DNA of 64,000 nucleotides from Bacteroides sp. (GTDB taxonomy: Bacteria; Bacteroidota; Bacteroidia; Bacteroidales; Muribaculaceae). Under the pieces are notes generated by a model. It did not search any database and was not told where the DNA came from. It saw nothing but the letters and a program-made list of their open reading frames with translations. This document shows, piece by piece, positions 41,266-51,674 of the stretch. The first letter of the stretch is position 1. Each line of letters opens with the position of its first letter. A program made the translations under genes and the position numbers. The DNA lies in assembly GCA_014801585.1 (NCBI GenBank), contig JAAVDX010000024.1, positions 1-64,000 of the forward strand. The letters run 5' to 3'.

Positions 41266-41331
41266 AATAATAAATCCCTACAAAAAATCCCGAACCGATC
41301 GGTTCGGGATTTTTTGTAGGGATTTATTATT
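41266..41331. terminator. Bidirectional terminator, perfect 66-bp palindrome
   Basis: Arms 41266-41298 and 41299-41331 are exact 33-bp inverted copies with no spacer, between the convergent ends of dnaJ and the sigma-protease gene. The arms include a T6 run on each strand after a GC-rich inner stem. Confidence 0.85.
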
Positions 41332-41345
41332 CCGAAGTCAGCGAC

Positions 41346-43559
41346 TTATCGATTAAGTATCTTTTGCGTCATTTCTCCGCAACGGGCTATATAAGCTCCC
41401 GTCGGGAGAGTGATGGATTCACCCGGTCGTAGATCTGCTACCTTTACTCCGGAAAGAGAATAAATCTCTGCATCAAGATCCGAAGAGTTATTTTTTAATT
41501 GTCCGTCGACGGCTGCGACAATTGTAGCATCATCCGTAATTGAAACTACGCCTGAGGTCGACATCTCTGTATCAAAAGAGATCAGACTATTCTCCTCCTT
41601 AATATTATAAATCTTCTCAACTTCTAATTTCTTATCGGCCCACGACCGGAGCGCCGGTTTGGTGTCATAGCCGAAGGTCGTGATAGTGCTTTTTCCGGGG
41701 AAGGGATCGCCGTTGCGATTGATATCTGTCAGGCTGTAATCGGCTTCTACAAGGTCGATACACTGATGCGTACGCTGATTATTCAGAATGTTGTTGTCCC
41801 ACATCCGCTGATCATAATCGATATGCCATACGAGCATCCCCTTGCCGGGAAGATAGAGATCCCAGCCTGACGGCTGACGGTTTTCGAGAAGGAAGAACTC
41901 GTCGGGACGCTCGGTTGAGATTCGATATCCGAAGTTGGATTTATCAATGGCCTCAAGAGAGTAAGCGCCTGCCGCAGTAATTTCTTCCGGGGTAGCCCAT
42001 CCGAGACACATACGCTCAAAGATAGAGTAGTAGGGTGGGGTGCGGCTGTTGTTGTTATAAGAACCGGTATCCATTGTGTCAAACCGCCCCGGAGTATAGG
42101 CTCCCGTGTAGGCCGTGGCATAAAAGTCAGGCAGACCGAGAACGTGGCCGAACTCATGAACAAACGTGCCGATACCATCCGGAGTCGTCGTATTAGCCTT
42201 GAGTTCGTTGCTCATTGCATATCGATTGAGCAGAACCCCGTCGAAATAATAATCCTCTTCAAGATTATAATCCAATATATCCGCAGAGTGAGGCCATATT
42301 AACGAGGATGTGCTTGCATCCTGCTCTCCATAGCCCGCATAAAATACGTACACATTGTCGATCATTCCGTCACCGTCAGTATCATATTGAGAGAAGTCCA
42401 CGGTCTTGTCAAGTGCCTGCAGAGCTTCAATCACCATCTCGTGGGGATACATGTCGTAGCCCTGACGGTCGTTCTGGCCGTAATAGCTCCAGCCGTTTTT
42501 CATCACGACAGGTCCATAGACGTCAAATTGGGGCGTGAAGCGTCCCAATGAATTATCGGAAAAGAAGTCGAGCGCCGACCCGGTCGCACCATTGTCGGAA
42601 AAGCCACGCTCATTGAGCATTCGTGTGTAATAATCATTAGGATCCTCCATAGAGAAGAATTTGTCGCGGAATTTCACAAGAATGACAAGCGCCTTCGGAC
42701 TACCCGATGACGGGAATGAAGCCCCGGAGATAAGATATTTCGGAGCTGTTACTTCAGGCTGACTGTCGGCATCACCGGAACCATTAATAGAGATCGGTCT
42801 GACTACCGGACGCATCCACCCGTCGGCATCTACCTGCAGTTCCTGACTTCCGTCGGGAGTAGTGATGCGATGCGAGTTCTCATTACCCTTAATCCGGAAT
42901 TCGATTATCGTGCCGTCCGGCTGAGTGTGCTGCAGTATATCCGGGTAGGCCGGAATTGCCATTGCGGATAGAGATGTGAGTGTGATTGCTCCGATTGCCG
43001 CCATCAGACCAAACGCCTTGGTCAGCTTCTTCACGGCGTGATGATAGGAGGCTTTGAGCGCACCTACCGACGTGCCGAGAATATCGGAAATTTCTTCGTA
43101 TTTCATTTCGTCAAAGTATTTCATGTTGAATACGAGGCGCTGCTTTTCCGGGAGTTTCGCAATCTCTTTCATCAGGTTCTCCTGAAGTTCTTCCCCGTCG
43201 AAATATTCGTCGGCTTCGAGTCGGTCAAGAAGGAAAGAAGTGTCGTCAGTATCAGCAGAGATATTCTGACGGCTTTTCTCCCGATTGATGAAATTGATCG
43301 CTTCATTGACTGCTATCTTATATAGCCAGGTCGATAGTTTGGCATCGCCTCTGAAATTATGGATATTATTCCAGGCTTTAAGAAAGACGTTCTGCAAAAG
43401 ATCATTGGCATCATCGTGGTCGTAGACCATTTTTCGAATCTGCCAGTAGAGGGGTTCGGAAAAGGTGCGCATCAGTAACTCGAAGGCCTTGTTGGCCGTC
43501 GATTCCCGCTGCAGGTCTTCGATGAGTTTCTTTTCGTCGATAGCTGTAGAGAACGCCAT
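41346..43559 (-). CDS. ECF sigma factor fused to secreted M6-family metalloprotease
   Basis: One open frame of 737 codons. Residues 1 to about 178 are a complete ECF-type sigma factor: region 2 around 22-90 (DDANDLLQNVFLKAWNNI, STWLYKIAVNEAINFI) and region 4 around 125-178 (LPEKQRLVFNMKYFDEM, EEISDILGTSVGALKASYHH). Residues 176-201 read exactly like a signal peptide, with KKLTK, a hydrophobic core and an AMA cleavage site at 199-201. The rest is an M6 (immune-inhibitor-A-like) protease with a calcium-loop-like DTDGDGMIDN and zinc motif HEFGH at 468-472, followed by GLPD. The last 50 residues (IYSLSGVKV ... QKILNR) resemble a type IX sorting domain. Val176 is encoded by GTG, a possible internal start for the protease. 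The fusion may be real or may reflect a lost stop codon. Confidence 0.9.
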   Translation of the reverse strand: MAFSTAIDEKKLIEDLQRESTANKAFELLMRTFSEPLYWQIRKMVYDHDDANDLLQNVFLKAWNNIHNFRGDAKLSTWLYKIAVNEAINFINREKSRQNISADTDDTSFLLDRLEADEYFDGEELQENLMKEIAKLPEKQRLVFNMKYFDEMKYEEISDILGTSVGALKASYHHAVKKLTKAFGLMAAIGAITLTSLSAMAIPAYPDILQHTQPDGTIIEFRIKGNENSHRITTPDGSQELQVDADGWMRPVVRPISINGSGDADSQPEVTAPKYLISGASFPSSGSPKALVILVKFRDKFFSMEDPNDYYTRMLNERGFSDNGATGSALDFFSDNSLGRFTPQFDVYGPVVMKNGWSYYGQNDRQGYDMYPHEMVIEALQALDKTVDFSQYDTDGDGMIDNVYVFYAGYGEQDASTSSLIWPHSADILDYNLEEDYYFDGVLLNRYAMSNELKANTTTPDGIGTFVHEFGHVLGLPDFYATAYTGAYTPGRFDTMDTGSYNNNSRTPPYYSIFERMCLGWATPEEITAAGAYSLEAIDKSNFGYRISTERPDEFFLLENRQPSGWDLYLPGKGMLVWHIDYDQRMWDNNILNNQRTHQCIDLVEADYSLTDINRNGDPFPGKSTITTFGYDTKPALRSWADKKLEVEKIYNIKEENSLISFDTEMSTSGVVSITDDATIVAAVDGQLKNNSSDLDAEIYSLSGVKVADLRPGESITLPTGAYIARCGEMTQKILNR

Positions 43560-43610
43560 GTCGCTTTATGATGTTGATTAAATAAGCGTAAAGTTAATAA
43601 AAAAACGCGA

Positions 43611-43619
43611 TATGACCCT
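43611..43619 (-). promoter_or_regulatory. AGGGTCATA element upstream of the sigma-protease gene
   Basis: Minus-strand AGGGTCATA lies about 52 bases before the sigma-protease start. A matching AGGGTCAATAT lies on the plus strand before the divergent membrane-protein gene. No TAnnTTTG motif is present on either side. The pair may be the promoter recognised by the encoded sigma factor. Confidence 0.4.
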
Positions 43620-43706
43620 CCTTAATTATTATCGAAAACTTCAAAAATGTTAAAATTGTAAAAGAATCAATATTTTCATAGGCTGTTTAAACTTTTCCTC
43701 TCTTCA

Positions 43707-43717
43707 AGGGTCAATAT
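43707..43717 (+). promoter_or_regulatory. AGGGTCAATAT element upstream of the membrane-protein gene
   Basis: Plus-strand partner of the element at 43611-43619, about 66 bases before the 43783 start codon. The two face outward, as expected for a divergent, jointly controlled promoter pair. Confidence 0.4.
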
Positions 43718-43782
43718 GATATCAATAAAATGTAACTGACTCAAAAAGTCTTAAAATTACGGAGTTATATCCCTTCACTATT

Positions 43783-44235
43783 ATGGGAAAAGAAGATAAA
43801 CTTTTGCGTCATGCCGGCCGTCACACCGGCATGAAGGTCCCCGAAGGATATTTCGAGGACTTTGTCGGACAGATGATGGATCGCCTGCCCGAATATCCGG
43901 AGCGTCCAGTCCCGCAGCAGTTGTCGCGTTGGCAGCGCATCAAGCCGTATGTCTATATGGCTGCTATGTTCGCCGGCATCTGGTGTATGATGAAGATGTT
44001 CCATATAGCTTCGCAGAATGCTCAGTCGGCTGATCTCGACAATCCCCCCCAGAGTGTAGTACTCGCGATGGATGATTCCGACACGTTCGACTATTTCTAC
44101 GAAGCCTCGGATCCTTCAGATGATATCAGCGATTTCGAGATTGAAGAGGCTGTAAGCAACGACTATTCCGATATGCGGGATTTCGAAAAAGACTTCGGCT
44201 TCGAGATCCGCCCGGAATATCAGTCGCTCATTTAA
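43783..44235 (+). CDS. Small single-span membrane protein, putative anti-sigma partner
   Basis: A 150-residue protein with a cytoplasmic-looking N-terminus (MKVPEGYFEDF), one membrane segment (about 53-70, IKPYVYMAAMFAGIWCMM) and a very acidic C-terminal half. No named domain is recognised. Proteins of this plan, with the VPEGYFE motif, commonly sit next to ECF sigma genes in Bacteroidales, so a role in holding the sigma factor at the membrane is inferred. Here it is divergent from the sigma-protease gene, with a shared promoter region. It precedes the toxin-antitoxin pair by 29 bases. Confidence 0.7.
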   Translation: MGKEDKLLRHAGRHTGMKVPEGYFEDFVGQMMDRLPEYPERPVPQQLSRWQRIKPYVYMAAMFAGIWCMMKMFHIASQNAQSADLDNPPQSVVLAMDDSDTFDYFYEASDPSDDISDFEIEEAVSNDYSDMRDFEKDFGFEIRPEYQSLI

Positions 44236-44264: not shown

Positions 44265-44690
44265 ATGGATGAAGATGTAAGATGGTTACAACGCCTGTCG
44301 AATTATCGCAAGGCTCTTCGAAAACTCGAAGAAGGTTTGAATCAGCTATCGCTCTTACAGAGTAATAACCTCTTGGATATTGTCAGGGAGGGAGTTATCC
44401 AGAGATTTGAGTTCACCCATGAATTGGCATGGAAGGTAATGAAGGATTATCTGGAATATCAGGGTGTCAAGGTTATGGGATCTCGCGATGCGATACGAAA
44501 TGCTCTTAATTACAATCTGATATCCGATAAAGTGTGGCTAAAGAGTGTAGATGCTCGAAATCTTACATCTCATACTTATGATGAAGAAATAGCAGATGAA
44601 GTATTTGAATCGATTACGAACATCTATTTCCCACTTTTTCAAGAATTCATGATCAGAATGGAGGAGATTGAACATGAGAGTGAAAGCTGA
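44265..44690 (+). CDS. hepT: HepT-type HEPN toxin (HI0074 family)
   Basis: A 141-residue helical protein of the nucleotidyltransferase substrate-binding (HEPN) family. It carries the toxin's RNase motif RX4HXY exactly as RNLTSHTY. In characterised HepT-MntA pairs HepT is the RNA-cleaving toxin and its motif Tyr is AMPylated by MntA. The mntA gene overlaps its 3' end, as expected for the module. Base composition looks more AT-rich than the neighbouring genes, consistent with separate acquisition. Confidence 0.9.
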   Translation: MDEDVRWLQRLSNYRKALRKLEEGLNQLSLLQSNNLLDIVREGVIQRFEFTHELAWKVMKDYLEYQGVKVMGSRDAIRNALNYNLISDKVWLKSVDARNLTSHTYDEEIADEVFESITNIYFPLFQEFMIRMEEIEHESES

Positions 44691-44997
44691 TGTTATAGGG
44701 TTAGAGGAGTCGGAATTGGATGAGTTGATAGAAATTTTATCATCCGATCCTTACATTTCCGGCGCTATTCTCTATGGTTCGAGAGCGAAGGGAACTTATA
44801 AGCCGTTTTCGGATCTTGACATTACTCTTAAAGGTGATAAGCTTTCAATTGATACCCTTGCGGAGCTTCAAAATAAATTTTATTATTCCTCTCTTCCTTA
44901 CCTTGTTGATCTCTCGATTTTCGACCGATTGAAAAATGATGAGTTGATTGATCATATCCGACGTCGGGGAATCACGCTTTATTCGCGTAACTCTTGA
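44674..44997 (+). CDS. mntA: MntA-type minimal nucleotidyltransferase antitoxin
   Basis: A small nucleotidyltransferase with the full family motif GSX10DXD (GSRAKGTYKPFSDLD). In known systems it neutralises HepT by adding AMP units to the HEPN tyrosine. The open frame extends to a TTG at 44668, but the ATG at 44674 is preceded by GAGGAG at a proper 7-base distance, so that start is chosen, giving 107 residues. It overlaps hepT by 17 bases. Confidence 0.9.
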   Translation: MRVKADVIGLEESELDELIEILSSDPYISGAILYGSRAKGTYKPFSDLDITLKGDKLSIDTLAELQNKFYYSSLPYLVDLSIFDRLKNDELIDHIRRRGITLYSRNS

Positions 44998-45030: not shown

Positions 45031-45495
45031 ATGAAAAAATATCTACTTTTGTTATTGGTTTTTCTGGGTATGGCCGTCTCCGTGCAGGCTCAGCGACGAT
45101 GTGGGCAGCCGGATGCTGAGAAACTCAAGGAAATCAATGAGTATCGACTCAAGTATCTCGCGCAGGAGATGGAACTTACTGATGAGCAGAAACCAAAGTT
45201 CGTCGAACTCTACAATCAGATGACTGCCGAACGTAAGGCTAATTTCGATAAGCTTCGCGCGGCCGAAAAGAAACTTAAAGGAAATCTTTCCGATGCCGAG
45301 TATAAGGCTCAGGTTAATGTGGTCTCCGATTGTAAAGTGCACGATGCGCAGATTGTCAAGGATTATGATGCAAAATTCGAAAAGTTTCTTTCTGCCAAAC
45401 AGATATATAAGATGAAGGAGGCCGAAGAAAAATTCCGAAAACGATTGAGGGAGATGCATCAGCAACGAAAGCATGATAAAAAGAAAACTAACTGA
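45031..45495 (+). CDS. Spy/CpxP-like periplasmic protein
   Basis: A 154-residue protein with a signal peptide (MKKYLLLLLVFLGMAVSVQAQ, cleavage near 21) and a long, charged, all-helical mature part. The LTDEQKPKFVELYNQM segment matches the LTxxQ-type repeat of Spy/CpxP chaperones and their Bacteroidota relatives. Such proteins often lie in ECF sigma operons and buffer periplasmic folding stress. It ends 14 bases before the alpha-2-macroglobulin gene, so the two are almost certainly co-transcribed. Confidence 0.78.
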   Translation: MKKYLLLLLVFLGMAVSVQAQRRCGQPDAEKLKEINEYRLKYLAQEMELTDEQKPKFVELYNQMTAERKANFDKLRAAEKKLKGNLSDAEYKAQVNVVSDCKVHDAQIVKDYDAKFEKFLSAKQIYKMKEAEEKFRKRLREMHQQRKHDKKKTN

Positions 45496-45509: not shown

Positions 45510-48500
45510 ATGAACCAACAATTTACCATATTTAACCAACGAGGGGGAAGGGCTTTATCCCTTCTCCTTTGTTTTTTCCTGAGTGCGCTATTCTGCCCCT
45601 CAGGCATGGCGGGGTTGCTCGCGTCTTCGGCAACCTCTGCTATGACAGCGTCTAAAACAGTGACGAAAACAGCCGGAAGTAAATCGGCTAAAGGAAAGTC
45701 TTCCGGCGGGAAAGCTGTTTCTACTACTCCAAAGTCAACTTTCCTTAATCCGGATTTCGCTTTTCCCGATGATGTTCGTCGCGATGCTTCCCCGGCTTTC
45801 ACTAAGGGTCTTAAAACGAATGACCCGGTGATGGCTCTTAATGCTGCTATGCAACTCGCAGTGGCTGATAGGTTGACAAGCCGCGACAGCATCGGATCTG
45901 TAATCAGTCGTTACGACCGGGTTGCGGCTGCATTTGGCCAGCCTTGGCGTTCGCTCGCATTGATTCTGAAGGCTCGTCAGCTCAATGATGTCTACAGATC
46001 TTCTGCATGGCAGTTCAATCAGAGAGTTTTGCCGCTTGATTCCCTGAGCGATGAACCGATGCTTTGGAGCGGTGCGCAGTTCCGCCAATGCATAGGTCAG
46101 ACGGTTAGAGAAGTCATGAGTGCGCAAAATTCTCTCCAGTCCATGTCGCTCTCTACTATTTCGGCTTTGCTGACCGACAGTGAGGACGCTGAAAAGGCGG
46201 GGTTCTCAGTTTTTGATTTCGCTACATATCAGTGTATAGGGTTGGCTTCGACTGAATCCGTTAATCAATCGATTCCCTTCCGCAGGATTGATGGCTCGGG
46301 CGAAGGTGGTTCTAATGAATCTGAGGATGTTGTTGAAGCCGGTCTTAGTAATATGGCATTGATAGATGCTCTCATCCTCTCTGATCAGCAGAGGGGCGAT
46401 TCAGCCGCGCTTGCACTCCTGCAGGCTCGCTTGAAAAAGGCGTCGATGATGTCGGATGATTACTCTGAATCTGATAAGGATGGTTTTGTCAGCGGTTATG
46501 CCAAGCATCTGCTCGATATTTATCCTGAAGGCTCTGTACTCCGCCCCATATTGATCAGCCGTCTTTATCAGATGGGTAAGTTCCGGACTGATAATCTGTC
46601 AAACCGCCGCGCGCTCTATGCTCTTCTCGGAACAACAGTGGCTTCGACATCCGATGAATCGCAGCGCAAACTTCTGGAGGGTATTCGTGCCCAACTGATG
46701 ATCCCTTCTTACACACTCTCCACTCCTTATCAGTGGCTGACCTCCCGGAAGGGTGAAGTGGCAATGAATCTGAAGAATGTAAAAAACGGTTATCTTTTGC
46801 TCATGCCTATCTCTCCCTCTCAGGCGGAGGGTGAGGCCGGTGATAAACTGATGATTTCTACTTTGCGTCCGAGCGGACCGATAAAGATTCTTGCAAGCTG
46901 GCTCAATACTCTTCCTCAGCCGACGGAAGTCTTGGATACCGTCGCCGTAGGTCCGCTTCCGGCCGGATACTACGCTTTAGTATTGTCGGAAACTCAGGCT
47001 CTCAGCGGTGTTAGCCCGGCTATCAGTAAGTCGCGACCCGATATAATTTTGGTGAGCGATCTTAATGCATTTTCATCCGACGCCTCCTCCCGAAGCGATG
47101 ACAAGAAGGAGGTTGCCAAGTATCTTTATGTGACCGAAGCCACCAACAATGCTCCGGTCACCGGAGCGAAAGTCAATTTTACCTCTACCGTTTATCGTCA
47201 GACCGGTAAGACATCTTCTGCCGTCACTGATAAGGATGGTAAGGTATTGTTGCCGTTTGAATCGTGTCGCGCTGTCATCACTCGTGGCTCCGACCGCCTG
47301 ACGTGGAATGGTGCTCGCGGTTATGTCCCTTCGTTGGAGAAAGGGCAGACTCAGGCTTCAATACTTACCGACTTGGCTCTCTACCATCCGGGAGATTCCA
47401 TTCAGGCAGTCGTAGTCTTGAGCAGATGTGAGGATAATCTTCTGTCGGTTGCCCCGGATAGAAAGTTCTCGCTGCTTCTGCGGGATGCCAATTATCAGCA
47501 GGTCGACAGTGTGGCTCTTTGTAGCGATCGTCTCGGGCGCGCTGTCGGAGCGTTGCATATCCCCGCTGACGGCCTGACCGGGCAGTTTACTCTGCAGGCT
47601 ATATCTGAGGATAAGTATCTTGGTAATGCCTGGGTCAATGTGGCCGATTATAAAGCCCCTTCTTTCCGCGTCTCCCTCGATTCCCCCGAAGTTGTCGCCA
47701 ACGATTCTGCCGGCGAAGGGGATATTATTCGTCTCTCGGGTCTTGTAGGATCTTACTCGGGTGTGCCCCTGGCTAATGCCACGGTTGATCTGTCGATCGA
47801 TTATCAGCCGTGGTGGCGCCCTTGGATGTGGAGCGGAAGTAATGCCTCCGGTTCTTATGCCACTTCAGCTGTGACTGATTCTAAAGGCTGTTTCAGTGTC
47901 GAACTCTCCCTCCCCGTCGAGGATGTGGAGCGTTATCGTTTCGGCATATTCTCTGCGAAAGCGACAGCTACCGCTGAATCCGGTGAGACTCAGACCTCCG
48001 AACCCCGGCGGTTTGCGATAGGGGAGGGCTACTCTTTGGAATATGCCGGTCCGGCAGATATCGAAGTCGTCGGTAAGGAGGTTAAGCTGCCGGCTCGTGT
48101 AATGGATATTACCGGTCAAAGTGTAGAGCGTAAGGTAAGTTATGCTCTCGCACGTATCTCAACTTCGACCCAACAGCCGGATTTCTCACGTTCTGACTTG
48201 AAGGGTGAGGCAACTCTGCCCGGCATCTCCGTCCCGGCTTCCCGACTCCCGTCCGGAATGTATATGCTGCGTGTCGTTCTCGATAAGGCGGCTAAAATAT
48301 CCGGTGAAGGTGAGACTGCCGTGTGGCGCCCGGATACACTTGTTCAGCAGATTATCGTGACGAGAGCCGATGATGTCCGTCCCCCGATGGAGACTGCGCT
48401 ATGGGTGCCTCAATCCTCCTGTTATGCCCGTCCCGGTGAGTCGAAAGTTGACATTACCGTCGGTACTTCTTACTCCGACAATTACATATATTGTCAGGTC

Positions 48501-51500
48501 GTAGGTAAAGATGGCACGCTGCGTCGGGAGTGGTTACGCCCCGAGGGTAAGAATATGGTAGTAAAGGTCGACGCTCCTAAAGATGGTGAGATTGTTCGTC
48601 TTTATTTTGAAGGTTGTCACGACCTCGAATGTTCTCGTCAGACAGTCACTGTCTATCCTCCTTCTCAGAGTCGGTCGACTCTCTTCAGGGTTGATACCTT
48701 CCGCGACCGCATAGCTCCGGGAGAGACGGAAACGTGGCGTTTCCGTCTGATGTCAGGCTGGTCTGATAAGTCGGTTAAGAGCAGCAATTCCCCGGAAAGT
48801 AATGCCTTGGATAATCTTCCCGCTTCATCTTTCGTGGCCGACGGAGCTGTAATAGCCGTTCTCTCCAATCAGGCTCTGGATGCTATCGCCCCGTTCAGTT
48901 GGGATTTCAATCCGCGCTCTCTGATAAATTATTCTACTGTCGGAGGTATTGAATCCCCCTGGACACGCAATATTTATTCAGGTAATAATCTTGCAGCCGG
49001 AGTTAAGCTCAATTGGTCTGCAGTCCGTTTTACCTACCCTCAGTTCCGTTATGATGATCCTATGTCCAATGGTCGGATTTACATCCGCGGCCGCGGCGCT
49101 ACCTATCGTTCGCTGGCTACTGCCACTCCCGGTGTGGCAGTCTCGGAAGTCAGGGATCAGGTGGCTTATAAAATGGCGTCCCCCGATAGAGTGTATGAAG
49201 AAAGTGCGGAAGTAGCATTGACCGGTGGGGTAGTAAATATGGTTATGAAGAAGGAATCGGCTGATGATATGGTCCTTGAGGAAAGTGGTGTCACTGCCGA
49301 CTCCGGCTCGGGTGTAGCGGATGACTCCTCTTCGGATGCTATTGATATGCGGTCGATGGAGATGCCGTTGGCTTTCTTTAAGCCGCTGCTTTCAACTGAT
49401 AGTGAGGGTTATGTAAATATTGATTTTACTGTTCCCAACTTCAATACCACTTGGAATCTGCAGCTTCTGGGTTACGATAAAAATCTTAATTCCGCCCTGC
49501 TGCGTGAGTCCGCTGTGGCGTCCAAACCGGTAATGATTTCAACCGCAATGCCGCGATTCCTCGCAACAGATGATAAGGCTACAATATCGGCTACTGTATT
49601 CAACAATACGGATTCTGACCTTGATATCGACGCGCAGATAGATATCCTCAATCTCGCTACCGGTGAATCCATTGCCTTTGAATCTACCGGCAATCGCCGC
49701 TTGGCTGCCAATTCCTCTGCTGTGGCTACGATTAGTTTCTTAGTGCCTTCCGATATGTCGCAGATAGGTGTCCGTGCAGTCGCCCGTTCTGAAAAGGGTA
49801 GCGATGGCGAGCAGGGGGCAGTCCTCATTCTTCCGTCGTCAACTCCCGTGACCGATGCCACTACTTTCTATCTTCGCCCCGGATGTGAGGAACAGACGGT
49901 ACGTCTTCCGAAGATGAATCCTGCGGCAAAACTGACTCTGAATTTCTGTAATAATCCGGAGTGGTTTGTTCTGACTTCGCTCTCCGGACTTCTCCAACCT
50001 GATTCTGAATCGGCTCTGGTGCAGGCCGTGGCGCTATATTCGAATTCTATAGCTTCGGGTCTGCTCAGAAGCAATGACCGACTGAAAGAGGGTCTTCGTA
50101 AAATGTTGGAATCCGACTCTGAAGCACTCACGTCGCCTCTTAAGCAGAATGAATATCTGAAACTCGCTGCTCTCGGGTCGACTCCTTGGGTTAACAATGC
50201 AGAGTCTGAGACTGCGCGTCTGCAAAGCCTCTCCTCGCTGCTTGATAATAAGTCGATCGACGAATCTCTGCAAAAACGGATCTCAGGATTGGAAAAGACC
50301 CGTAATGCTGATGGCTCATGGAGCTGGATGAAAGGTATGCCGGGTTCGGAGTGGATCACGCGTCAGGTAGTATCCTGTCTCGGTCAGTTGCGAATGTCCG
50401 GTTATCTCCCCTCCGACAAGCGTCTCAGATCTATGCTGTCCGGCGGTGTGAAATACATGGATTCGGAAGAATCGAAGTCATATAATGAGATTGTGAGGAA
50501 GCAAAAGGGTGAGTATCCTCTTTCTTCCGAGATCTCATATCTCTTCGATCGCTCTAATGCCTCCGACTCCAAGCCCTCCGGAACGATAGCGGAGATGGAA
50601 CGCGATATGCTTCGTCGTCTCCCCGAAGAATGGCGCGGTCTTTCTCTGATGGATAAAGCTACTGCGGCAATCTTGCTCAATCGTATAGGTCGCGATGCCG
50701 ACAAGGCTCTTGCCCGGATGATTCTCGAATCTGTACGCCAGTTTGCGACATACACTCCCGATAAGGGAATGTGGTTCGACAATGCCGGTGGTGCGTATAG
50801 CCGGATATCTCCTTCTCCGCTGATGCTCACATCACGTTGTCTTGACGCATTCCGCGAAGTAGAACCTGAAAATAATTCGATTTCCGGATTGGAACAGTAT
50901 CTTATCCTTTCTCGACAGACGCAGGATTGGAATCTCGAACTCGGGCAGGCGGGAGTCGCTACTGTTGTCAATTCCATCCTTTCCAGTGAAAAATCTCTCG
51001 GTTCTGAGAGCAGTTCTGCATCCGATGCAGCCTTCGGAAATGATGTCGATAATAGTCTTACGATAACCCTTGACGGTCGGGAACTCCGTCTGCCGGATGA
51101 TCCCGCCAATCTCCCCGGCAACTTCTATGTAAATATCGATCCGGTCAATGGGGAGGAGTCGGTTCTGACGATCCATCGCCACGGCCGTACTCCGGCCTGG
51201 GGTGGGGTAGTCAGTCAGTATGTTGCTCCGATTCAGGATGTGAGAGCTCATGAAGTCCCGCAGCTGAAGGTTGAGAAAGCGTTGCTCCCGGTCGCAGTCG
51301 GTGAGGGTGGTAAGACGGCTTCAAAAGATGCGACAACGTTTAAGAAAGGTGATCGCGTAAGAGTCACTTTGACTCTTACTGCCGATCGTGAACTCGATTA
51401 TCTCCTGCTTACCGATCGCCTCGGTGCGTGGATGCAACCTGCCGACCAACTTACCGAATATATTTCGCAAGATGGATTGTGGATGCTTCGCGAGACTCGT

Positions 51501-51674
51501 ACGGCTGACGTCAATTTCTATATCACCCGTCTTCCGAAAGGCAAATATGTTATCTCCTATGAGGTAAATGCTGCCCGCGACGGGGAGTATTCTAATGGAA
51601 TAGCCGCTGCTCAAAGTCAATATTATCCGTTGATTACTGCCCACTCTGCCGGACGGATAATCAACGTACGGTAA
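45510..51674 (+). CDS. Alpha-2-macroglobulin family protein
   Basis: A 2054-residue secreted or periplasmic protein with a signal peptide (SALFCPSGMAG) and a Ser/Lys-rich linker. It then shows macroglobulin domains (ATNNAPVTGAKVNFTSTVY; MG2-like DLALYHPGDSIQAVVVL at about 620), the A2M core near 1285-1345 (FFKPLLSTDSEGYVNIDFTVP, STAMPRFLATDDKATI), and a helical toroid-like domain with NADGSWSWMKGMPGSEWITR. Family members trap or block proteases. The usual thioester position at the toroid start (after FVLTSLSGLLQP) reads DSESALVQAVALYSN, with no CxEQ. A CEEQ occurs about 35 residues upstream (Cys1459). No lipobox is seen. It directly follows the Spy-like gene. Confidence 0.93.
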   Translation: MNQQFTIFNQRGGRALSLLLCFFLSALFCPSGMAGLLASSATSAMTASKTVTKTAGSKSAKGKSSGGKAVSTTPKSTFLNPDFAFPDDVRRDASPAFTKGLKTNDPVMALNAAMQLAVADRLTSRDSIGSVISRYDRVAAAFGQPWRSLALILKARQLNDVYRSSAWQFNQRVLPLDSLSDEPMLWSGAQFRQCIGQTVREVMSAQNSLQSMSLSTISALLTDSEDAEKAGFSVFDFATYQCIGLASTESVNQSIPFRRIDGSGEGGSNESEDVVEAGLSNMALIDALILSDQQRGDSAALALLQARLKKASMMSDDYSESDKDGFVSGYAKHLLDIYPEGSVLRPILISRLYQMGKFRTDNLSNRRALYALLGTTVASTSDESQRKLLEGIRAQLMIPSYTLSTPYQWLTSRKGEVAMNLKNVKNGYLLLMPISPSQAEGEAGDKLMISTLRPSGPIKILASWLNTLPQPTEVLDTVAVGPLPAGYYALVLSETQALSGVSPAISKSRPDIILVSDLNAFSSDASSRSDDKKEVAKYLYVTEATNNAPVTGAKVNFTSTVYRQTGKTSSAVTDKDGKVLLPFESCRAVITRGSDRLTWNGARGYVPSLEKGQTQASILTDLALYHPGDSIQAVVVLSRCEDNLLSVAPDRKFSLLLRDANYQQVDSVALCSDRLGRAVGALHIPADGLTGQFTLQAISEDKYLGNAWVNVADYKAPSFRVSLDSPEVVANDSAGEGDIIRLSGLVGSYSGVPLANATVDLSIDYQPWWRPWMWSGSNASGSYATSAVTDSKGCFSVELSLPVEDVERYRFGIFSAKATATAESGETQTSEPRRFAIGEGYSLEYAGPADIEVVGKEVKLPARVMDITGQSVERKVSYALARISTSTQQPDFSRSDLKGEATLPGISVPASRLPSGMYMLRVVLDKAAKISGEGETAVWRPDTLVQQIIVTRADDVRPPMETALWVPQSSCYARPGESKVDITVGTSYSDNYIYCQVVGKDGTLRREWLRPEGKNMVVKVDAPKDGEIVRLYFEGCHDLECSRQTVTVYPPSQSRSTLFRVDTFRDRIAPGETETWRFRLMSGWSDKSVKSSNSPESNALDNLPASSFVADGAVIAVLSNQALDAIAPFSWDFNPRSLINYSTVGGIESPWTRNIYSGNNLAAGVKLNWSAVRFTYPQFRYDDPMSNGRIYIRGRGATYRSLATATPGVAVSEVRDQVAYKMASPDRVYEESAEVALTGGVVNMVMKKESADDMVLEESGVTADSGSGVADDSSSDAIDMRSMEMPLAFFKPLLSTDSEGYVNIDFTVPNFNTTWNLQLLGYDKNLNSALLRESAVASKPVMISTAMPRFLATDDKATISATVFNNTDSDLDIDAQIDILNLATGESIAFESTGNRRLAANSSAVATISFLVPSDMSQIGVRAVARSEKGSDGEQGAVLILPSSTPVTDATTFYLRPGCEEQTVRLPKMNPAAKLTLNFCNNPEWFVLTSLSGLLQPDSESALVQAVALYSNSIASGLLRSNDRLKEGLRKMLESDSEALTSPLKQNEYLKLAALGSTPWVNNAESETARLQSLSSLLDNKSIDESLQKRISGLEKTRNADGSWSWMKGMPGSEWITRQVVSCLGQLRMSGYLPSDKRLRSMLSGGVKYMDSEESKSYNEIVRKQKGEYPLSSEISYLFDRSNASDSKPSGTIAEMERDMLRRLPEEWRGLSLMDKATAAILLNRIGRDADKALARMILESVRQFATYTPDKGMWFDNAGGAYSRISPSPLMLTSRCLDAFREVEPENNSISGLEQYLILSRQTQDWNLELGQAGVATVVNSILSSEKSLGSESSSASDAAFGNDVDNSLTITLDGRELRLPDDPANLPGNFYVNIDPVNGEESVLTIHRHGRTPAWGGVVSQYVAPIQDVRAHEVPQLKVEKALLPVAVGEGGKTASKDATTFKKGDRVRVTLTLTADRELDYLLLTDRLGAWMQPADQLTEYISQDGLWMLRETRTADVNFYITRLPKGKYVISYEVNAARDGEYSNGIAAAQSQYYPLITAHSAGRIINVR

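Follow-up and report, generated by a model that had tools for sequence, protein, structure and literature searches.

A sigma factor, a signal-like segment and an M6 metalloprotease encoded in a single reading frame in three Muribaculaceae species

Sigma factors with a C-terminal extension that spans the membrane have been described in IutY and in the groups ECF48, ECF52 and ECF53, and these are reported to have an anti-sigma domain within the same chain (PMC8999054; PMC5826349). IutY of Pseudomonas putida, an ECF243 sigma/anti-sigma hybrid, joins an ECF sigma domain, a membrane passage and an extracytoplasmic C-terminal part. Its sigma domain is reported to be released by the proteases Prc and RseP, the latter being required for the activation of variants in which periplasmic residues are retained (PMC5411451). 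ECF52 (SCO4117), found like its relatives ECF48 and ECF53 in Actinobacteria, is described together with them as a single chain with a sigma domain, a membrane segment and a long C-terminal extension; they carry a zinc-finger domain of the anti-sigma type, and ECF52 has an outer carbohydrate-binding module. In the RsiP and RsiV systems the membrane protein is the anti-sigma factor, and its cleavage, by signal peptidase as the site-1 protease and by RasP at site 2, precedes sigma activation (PMC8844934). RseP is also reported to remove the remnants of signal peptides that cleavage by signal peptidase leaves behind (PMC8144685).

The window analysed here is a stretch of 64,000 nucleotides from the draft genome (about 80% complete) of a Muribaculaceae bacterium (assembly GCA_014801585.1, contig JAAVDX010000024.1). 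At positions 41346..43559 of its minus strand, an ECF sigma factor, a signal or anchor segment and an M6 metalloprotease are encoded in one frame of 737 uninterrupted codons, from an ATG at 43559 to a TAA ending at 41346. Residues 1 to about 178 form a complete ECF sigma factor by Pfam. Region 2 (residues 31-95; 43275..43469, minus strand) matched Sigma70_r2 (PF04542, E 5.8e-14), and region 4 (residues 127-179; 43023..43181, minus strand), which ends in the motif ASYHHAVKK, matched Sigma70_r4_2 (PF08281, E 5.6e-15). Both matches were above cut-off, as was that to the NCBIfam sigma-factor profile TIGR02937. No sigma region beyond 2 and 4 was listed by Pfam up to E 1, except for PF04545, which is region 4 again, so that the sigma part has the composition of an ECF factor, with regions 2 and 4 and none of the larger sigma-70 regions.

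The protease part contains the M6 domain at residues 292-579 (41823..42686, minus strand; TIGR03296, E 1.3e-54, above cut-off), and Peptidase_M6 of Pfam covered residues 313-504, likewise above cut-off. The HExxH zinc site of this family is present as HEFGH at residues 468-472 (42144..42158, minus strand), and H468, E469, F470 and H472 are invariant in the alignment of the three fused proteins described below. The predicted strands of residues 668-737 (41349..41558, minus strand) indicate a C-terminal beta domain, possibly a type IX secretion tail. The scores for TIGR04183 were below its 23-bit cut-off (12.7 bits, E 0.096, for the window; 18.7 bits, E 0.0013, for the relative G035), and the profile was not listed for the relative G019. 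All four genomes tested, including that of the window, encode SprA, a component of type IX secretion.

The two parts are joined by residues 176-201 (VKKLTKAFGLMAAIGAITLTSLSAMA; 42957..43034, minus strand), which resemble a signal peptide or membrane segment: basic residues are followed by a hydrophobic stretch and then by AMA at 199-201. Of all 15-residue windows in the chain, those starting at residues 183, 185 and 188 are the three with the highest hydrophobicity. At the AMA position the three fused species have AMA, VMA and ARA; the AxA type is kept in all of them, and these triplets fit signal peptidase I. Compared with the unfused orthologues, the usual short sigma tail (e.g. KITESISSLE followed by a stop) is replaced at the join by K-L/I-T/S-KAFG and the hydrophobic segment. 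M6 metalloproteases are typically exported through a signal peptide; here the comparable, signal-like segment lies inside the chain. The single sigma-protease frame, the complete sigma part, the hydrophobic core at 183-198 and the positions of HEFGH and AMA had all been pointed out in an earlier note on this DNA, and each was borne out.

A structure was predicted from an alignment of 78 rows, including the three fused ones, drawn from 160 sigma and 34 protease rows that had passed. Over the sigma part, SigW (5wur) is among the solved ECF factors that the model resembles. For the protease part the best fold matches were 4yu5 and 4yu6, two structures of M6 zymogens, the former also being the best sequence match. 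Residues 165-197 were modelled as one unbroken helix, in which the last sigma helix would continue into the membrane segment; pLDDT values were below 50 at residues 186-206. By sequence and predicted model, the chain fits a layout of sigma domain, membrane segment and outer part.

The predicted layout would be shared with IutY and with ECF48, ECF52 and ECF53. The outer part is however different. In IutY this part is an anti-sigma domain; in the fusion a zinc protease follows a segment that looks like a cleavable signal, and a separate divergent gene encodes the anti-sigma-like protein of the locus. Neither the zinc-finger domain of the ECF48, ECF52 and ECF53 proteins nor the carbohydrate-binding module of ECF52 has a counterpart in the fusion, which would carry an enzyme outside. 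As no anti-sigma domain, FecR-like or zinc finger, was present among the 12 Pfam families listed up to E 1, the fusion is not a member of these groups, although it may work similarly. The fusion would share with RsiP and RsiV a membrane protein with a signal-peptidase site, but in the fusion this protein would be the sigma factor itself. The M6 metalloproteases of the immune inhibitor A family that match the protease part (4yu5, 4yu6) have no sigma factor attached. The earlier note knew of no described regulator of this layout. This has to be narrowed, since membrane-extended sigma factors are known, but neither a sigma-protease fusion nor any exported enzyme as a sigma extension was found described in the open-licence literature searched. 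Within that literature, and as far as it was searched, an exported enzyme as the membrane-crossing extension of a sigma factor is new.

A search with the whole protein matched residues 1-737 in one frame in 3 of 101 genomes of the genus, namely that of the window (G000), G035 (71% identity; JAIDYR010000050.1) and G019 (63%; CAMWSV010000094.1), the latter two being public draft records. The three proteins align without gaps from residue 1 through the junction. The presence of the same full-length join in two further species excludes chance or an assembly accident; the fusion is real. In a family-wide search the full-length form was present in 3 of 397 genomes, and in an order-wide search only the window's own genome, among 393, spanned residues 1-737 (two candidates per genome scored in both). 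No relative of the fusion was found in the viral contigs searched. An 838-residue frame in G021 was considered as a further fusion and rejected, as the sigma stop is present.

Orthologues of the sigma part were far more common (97 loci at E<=1e-60, spread over 96 of the 111 genomes of the genus); the 15 genomes without a match at this threshold are uninformative on the fusion. Beyond position 177, 93 of the 97 loci stop within 8-15 residues, three continue for 560-564 residues into the protease, and one (L263), cut by a contig end, was left out of the 93. None of the three fused species has a stop codon at the end of its sigma part. The sigma factor can therefore not be made alone, since the ribosome continues into the hydrophobic segment and the protease.

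Among the three fused species the sigma part showed pS values of 0.67-0.76, at or near saturation, and pN values of 0.03-0.08. This level of synonymous divergence points to a long-lasting fusion; judged by these values, the join is old and maintained and is common to the three species. A recent loss of the sigma stop codon, which the earlier note had offered as an alternative, is rejected in view of this divergence. The identities for G000-G035, G000-G019 and G035-G019 were 97, 86 and 86% for the sigma part, 96, 96 and 95% for DnaJ, and 63, 57 and 60% for the protease part. In G000-G035 the sigma identity keeps pace with DnaJ. In the pairs with G019 it is 86% at a DnaJ identity of 95-96%, slightly below that of four unfused pairs with a similar DnaJ distance (sigma 87-93%, DnaJ 92-97%; G021-G057, G021-G039, G021-G100 and G039-G100), and a slight relaxation of the sigma part is possible there. 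Two positions are peculiar to the fused sigma rows when compared with eight unfused rows of the same clade. Each fused genome, at 80-92% completeness, has a single sigma match at E<=1e-60. By its substitution pattern the sigma part is strongly constrained, and from this constraint it is most likely still a functional sigma factor.

The gene order at the 97 genus loci was varied. The sigma gene is followed by an anti-sigma-like gene in 46 loci, by an outer-membrane-like protein and an M6 gene in 15 and directly by an M6 gene in nine; three are fused and 24 have another order or are cut short. Separate sigma and M6 neighbours (e.g. G017, G021, G039 and G100) are the same orthologues in the same order and on the same strand as in the fusion. 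They differ from it in that the sigma gene has its stop 8-15 residues after position 177 and the protease gene has a start and a signal-like segment of its own. The protease gene of G017 is split between two contigs, and its locus was taken from the whole contig L111 in place of the short piece L078. At the 27 loci with an M6 gene following or fused, the anti-sigma-like gene is divergent in 21, downstream in the same direction in two and absent in one; three are truncated by a contig end. Within the genus, the sigma, anti-sigma-like, outer-membrane-like and M6 genes shift repeatedly in order and direction. G011 has sigma, M6, anti-sigma-like and Spy-like genes in one direction, and G098 has the order sigma, outer-membrane-like, M6, anti-sigma-like and Spy-like. 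The M6 gene may have joined the sigma locus more than once.

A wider survey covered the best 80 matching loci from named genomes. An anti-sigma-like gene was present on the same strand near the sigma gene in 51 of them, 32 of these also with a Spy-like gene. It was on the opposite strand in three and was not recognised in 24, 12 of which had a Spy-like gene on the same strand; the remaining two were the fused relatives. These counts indicate that sigma, anti-sigma-like and Spy-like genes in one direction are the usual order, and in the 21 divergent loci the sigma gene appears as if turned round relative to the anti-sigma-like gene. Locus L185, a candidate for a second independent fusion with a match extending to residue 211, turned out on gene-by-gene reading to be an ordinary same-strand set of this kind.

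In the sigma tree the fused rows formed one group (support 99/78, the SH-aLRT value of 78 being just below the usual 80), and a single change was obtained in 99% of 200 bootstrap trees. This group lies within a clade of 11 rows (100/95) that also holds six sigma-M6 and two sigma-outer-membrane-like-M6 loci. On the evidence of the tree, the fused forms have a common single origin in a clade where sigma factor and protease are otherwise separate neighbours. As the inner branch order of the clade is not resolved, a path from neighbours through loss of the middle gene to the fusion is the simplest reading and not a result.

Upstream of the fusion, and divergent from it, lies the gene of a putative membrane anti-sigma factor (43783..44235, plus strand). 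Its product has one hydrophobic segment by eye and no family match in Pfam or NCBIfam, so that its designation follows from its position; such a neighbour of the sigma gene is kept in the genus and beyond. Promoters for the two genes are presumed in the intergenic region (43560..43782). Of 13 distinct divergent loci, 5 have a T-run or T-rich site with TAnCTTTA upstream of the sigma gene, against 0.1 expected from mononucleotide shuffles; among 67 same-strand loci, 4 have one. The usual -7 element of Bacteroidota, TAnnTTTG, was found in 4 of the 13 divergent loci (2.4 expected) and in 30 of the 67 same-strand loci (8.2 expected). A promoter common to the sigma and anti-sigma-like genes did not emerge, and the sites are not taken to show how the locus is regulated.

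The sigma, anti-sigma-like and Spy-like set is continued on the plus strand by a Spy/LTXXQ-like gene (45031..45495; PF07813, E 6.5e-05, 24.0 bits, just under the 24.3-bit cut-off, and synteny) and the gene of a bacterial alpha-2-macroglobulin of 2054 amino acids (45510..51674; PF17973 and PF00207, above cut-off). The latter two genes suggest an envelope or protease-related response. A likely protease inhibitor, the alpha-2-macroglobulin, and a protease are thus encoded on opposite sides of one regulator. Between the anti-sigma-like and Spy-like genes, at 44265-44997, lies a HepT-like/nucleotidyltransferase pair (PF08780, PF18765), probably a toxin-antitoxin module, which the scripted survey detected at none of the other loci of the 97-locus genus set. 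On the other side, a perfect 33-bp inverted repeat without spacer (41266..41331) separates the convergent fusion and dnaJ genes and resembles a terminator. It is the only long perfect repeat among the longest 25 of 43 inverted-repeat pairs. In none of these 25 does a repeat at the junction pair with a plausible partner, and inverted repeats of a phase-variable switch were rejected there.

The reading preferred here is that the chain is made as one precursor of a cytoplasmic ECF sigma factor, an internal signal peptide and an exported M6 zinc protease, and that it is processed in two steps. Sec would insert the chain with the sigma factor inside and the protease outside, and signal peptidase I would cut after the AxA-type site and release the protease. 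The remaining stub of sigma factor and membrane segment, with almost no periplasmic tail, would then be cut by a site-2 protease of the RseP type, and the freed sigma factor would act under the control of the divergently encoded anti-sigma-like protein. A stub of this kind would be the sort of substrate that RseP takes, in view of the precedents for remnant signal peptides and IutY (PMC8144685; PMC5411451); proteolytic release, described for IutY, is for the fusion a proposal by analogy. A site-2 protease gene is present in the window's genome. Signal peptidase I was found in all six relatives tested, including G035 and G019. In the genome of the window it was not detected; at about 80% completeness this absence is read as a gap in the draft. 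A probability of about 0.5 is assigned to this route.

The chain could instead be inserted and remain uncut, as a type II membrane protein whose sigma part acts or is held back at the membrane and perhaps senses the contacts of the protease. The predicted continuous helix, of low confidence from residue 186, would suit such a protein, and ECF52 is reported to include sigma factors that are bound to the membrane and carry modules outside the cytoplasm. An uncut chain is nevertheless unlikely, since the AxA-type triplet is retained in all three fused species and the signal-peptide-like segments of unfused relatives end in similar junctions, e.g. QAVPAYPG in G021 and G039, as for a released protease. 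The type IX tail of G035, although below cut-off, also hints at release.

Equally improbable is the formation of two products, in which the full frame would serve mainly for the sigma factor and most of the protease would arise from an internal start at the junction. Near the head of the hydrophobic segment the window has the possible starts GTG176 and ATG186, G035 has TTG179, and G019 has GTG176 and GTG193; G019 also has ATG157. However, no start position between residues 153 and 199 is common to the three species. GTG at Val176, proposed in the earlier note as the old start of the protease, cannot be upheld: the codon is GTC, not a start, in G035, and the valine belongs to the sigma motif ASYHHAVKK, present in 79 of 93 unfused orthologues. 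ATG152 is common to all three species but lies deep in region 4, inside the sigma domain. Even with an internal start, the sigma factor could still not be made without the protease frame after it.

For a rare fusion in an incomplete draft it might be supposed that the sigma part is a decaying remnant, or that the join arose by an error of assembly or sequencing. Either is highly improbable given the full-length agreement of three genomes, the strong constraint under which the sigma part stands and the lack of a second close orthologue in the fused genomes, which are themselves incomplete.

If the two-step route is followed, one sigma factor would be delivered per exported protease, and since the join is old and maintained, protease export may also deliver the sigma factor. 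A secretion-coupled sigma factor, in which every protease that is exported and cleaved by signal peptidase would leave behind a single sigma factor for release by the site-2 protease, is put forward tentatively, at somewhat less than even odds. If true, sigma activity would report directly on the success of export, and protease and regulator would be made 1:1. If the processing holds, the leftover of export, a signal-peptide stub, would carry the transcription signal without a separate sensor. The genus holds apparent steps from neighbours (sigma factor, outer-membrane-like protein and protease) through direct neighbours to a single chain, so that each stage of the change is open to test.
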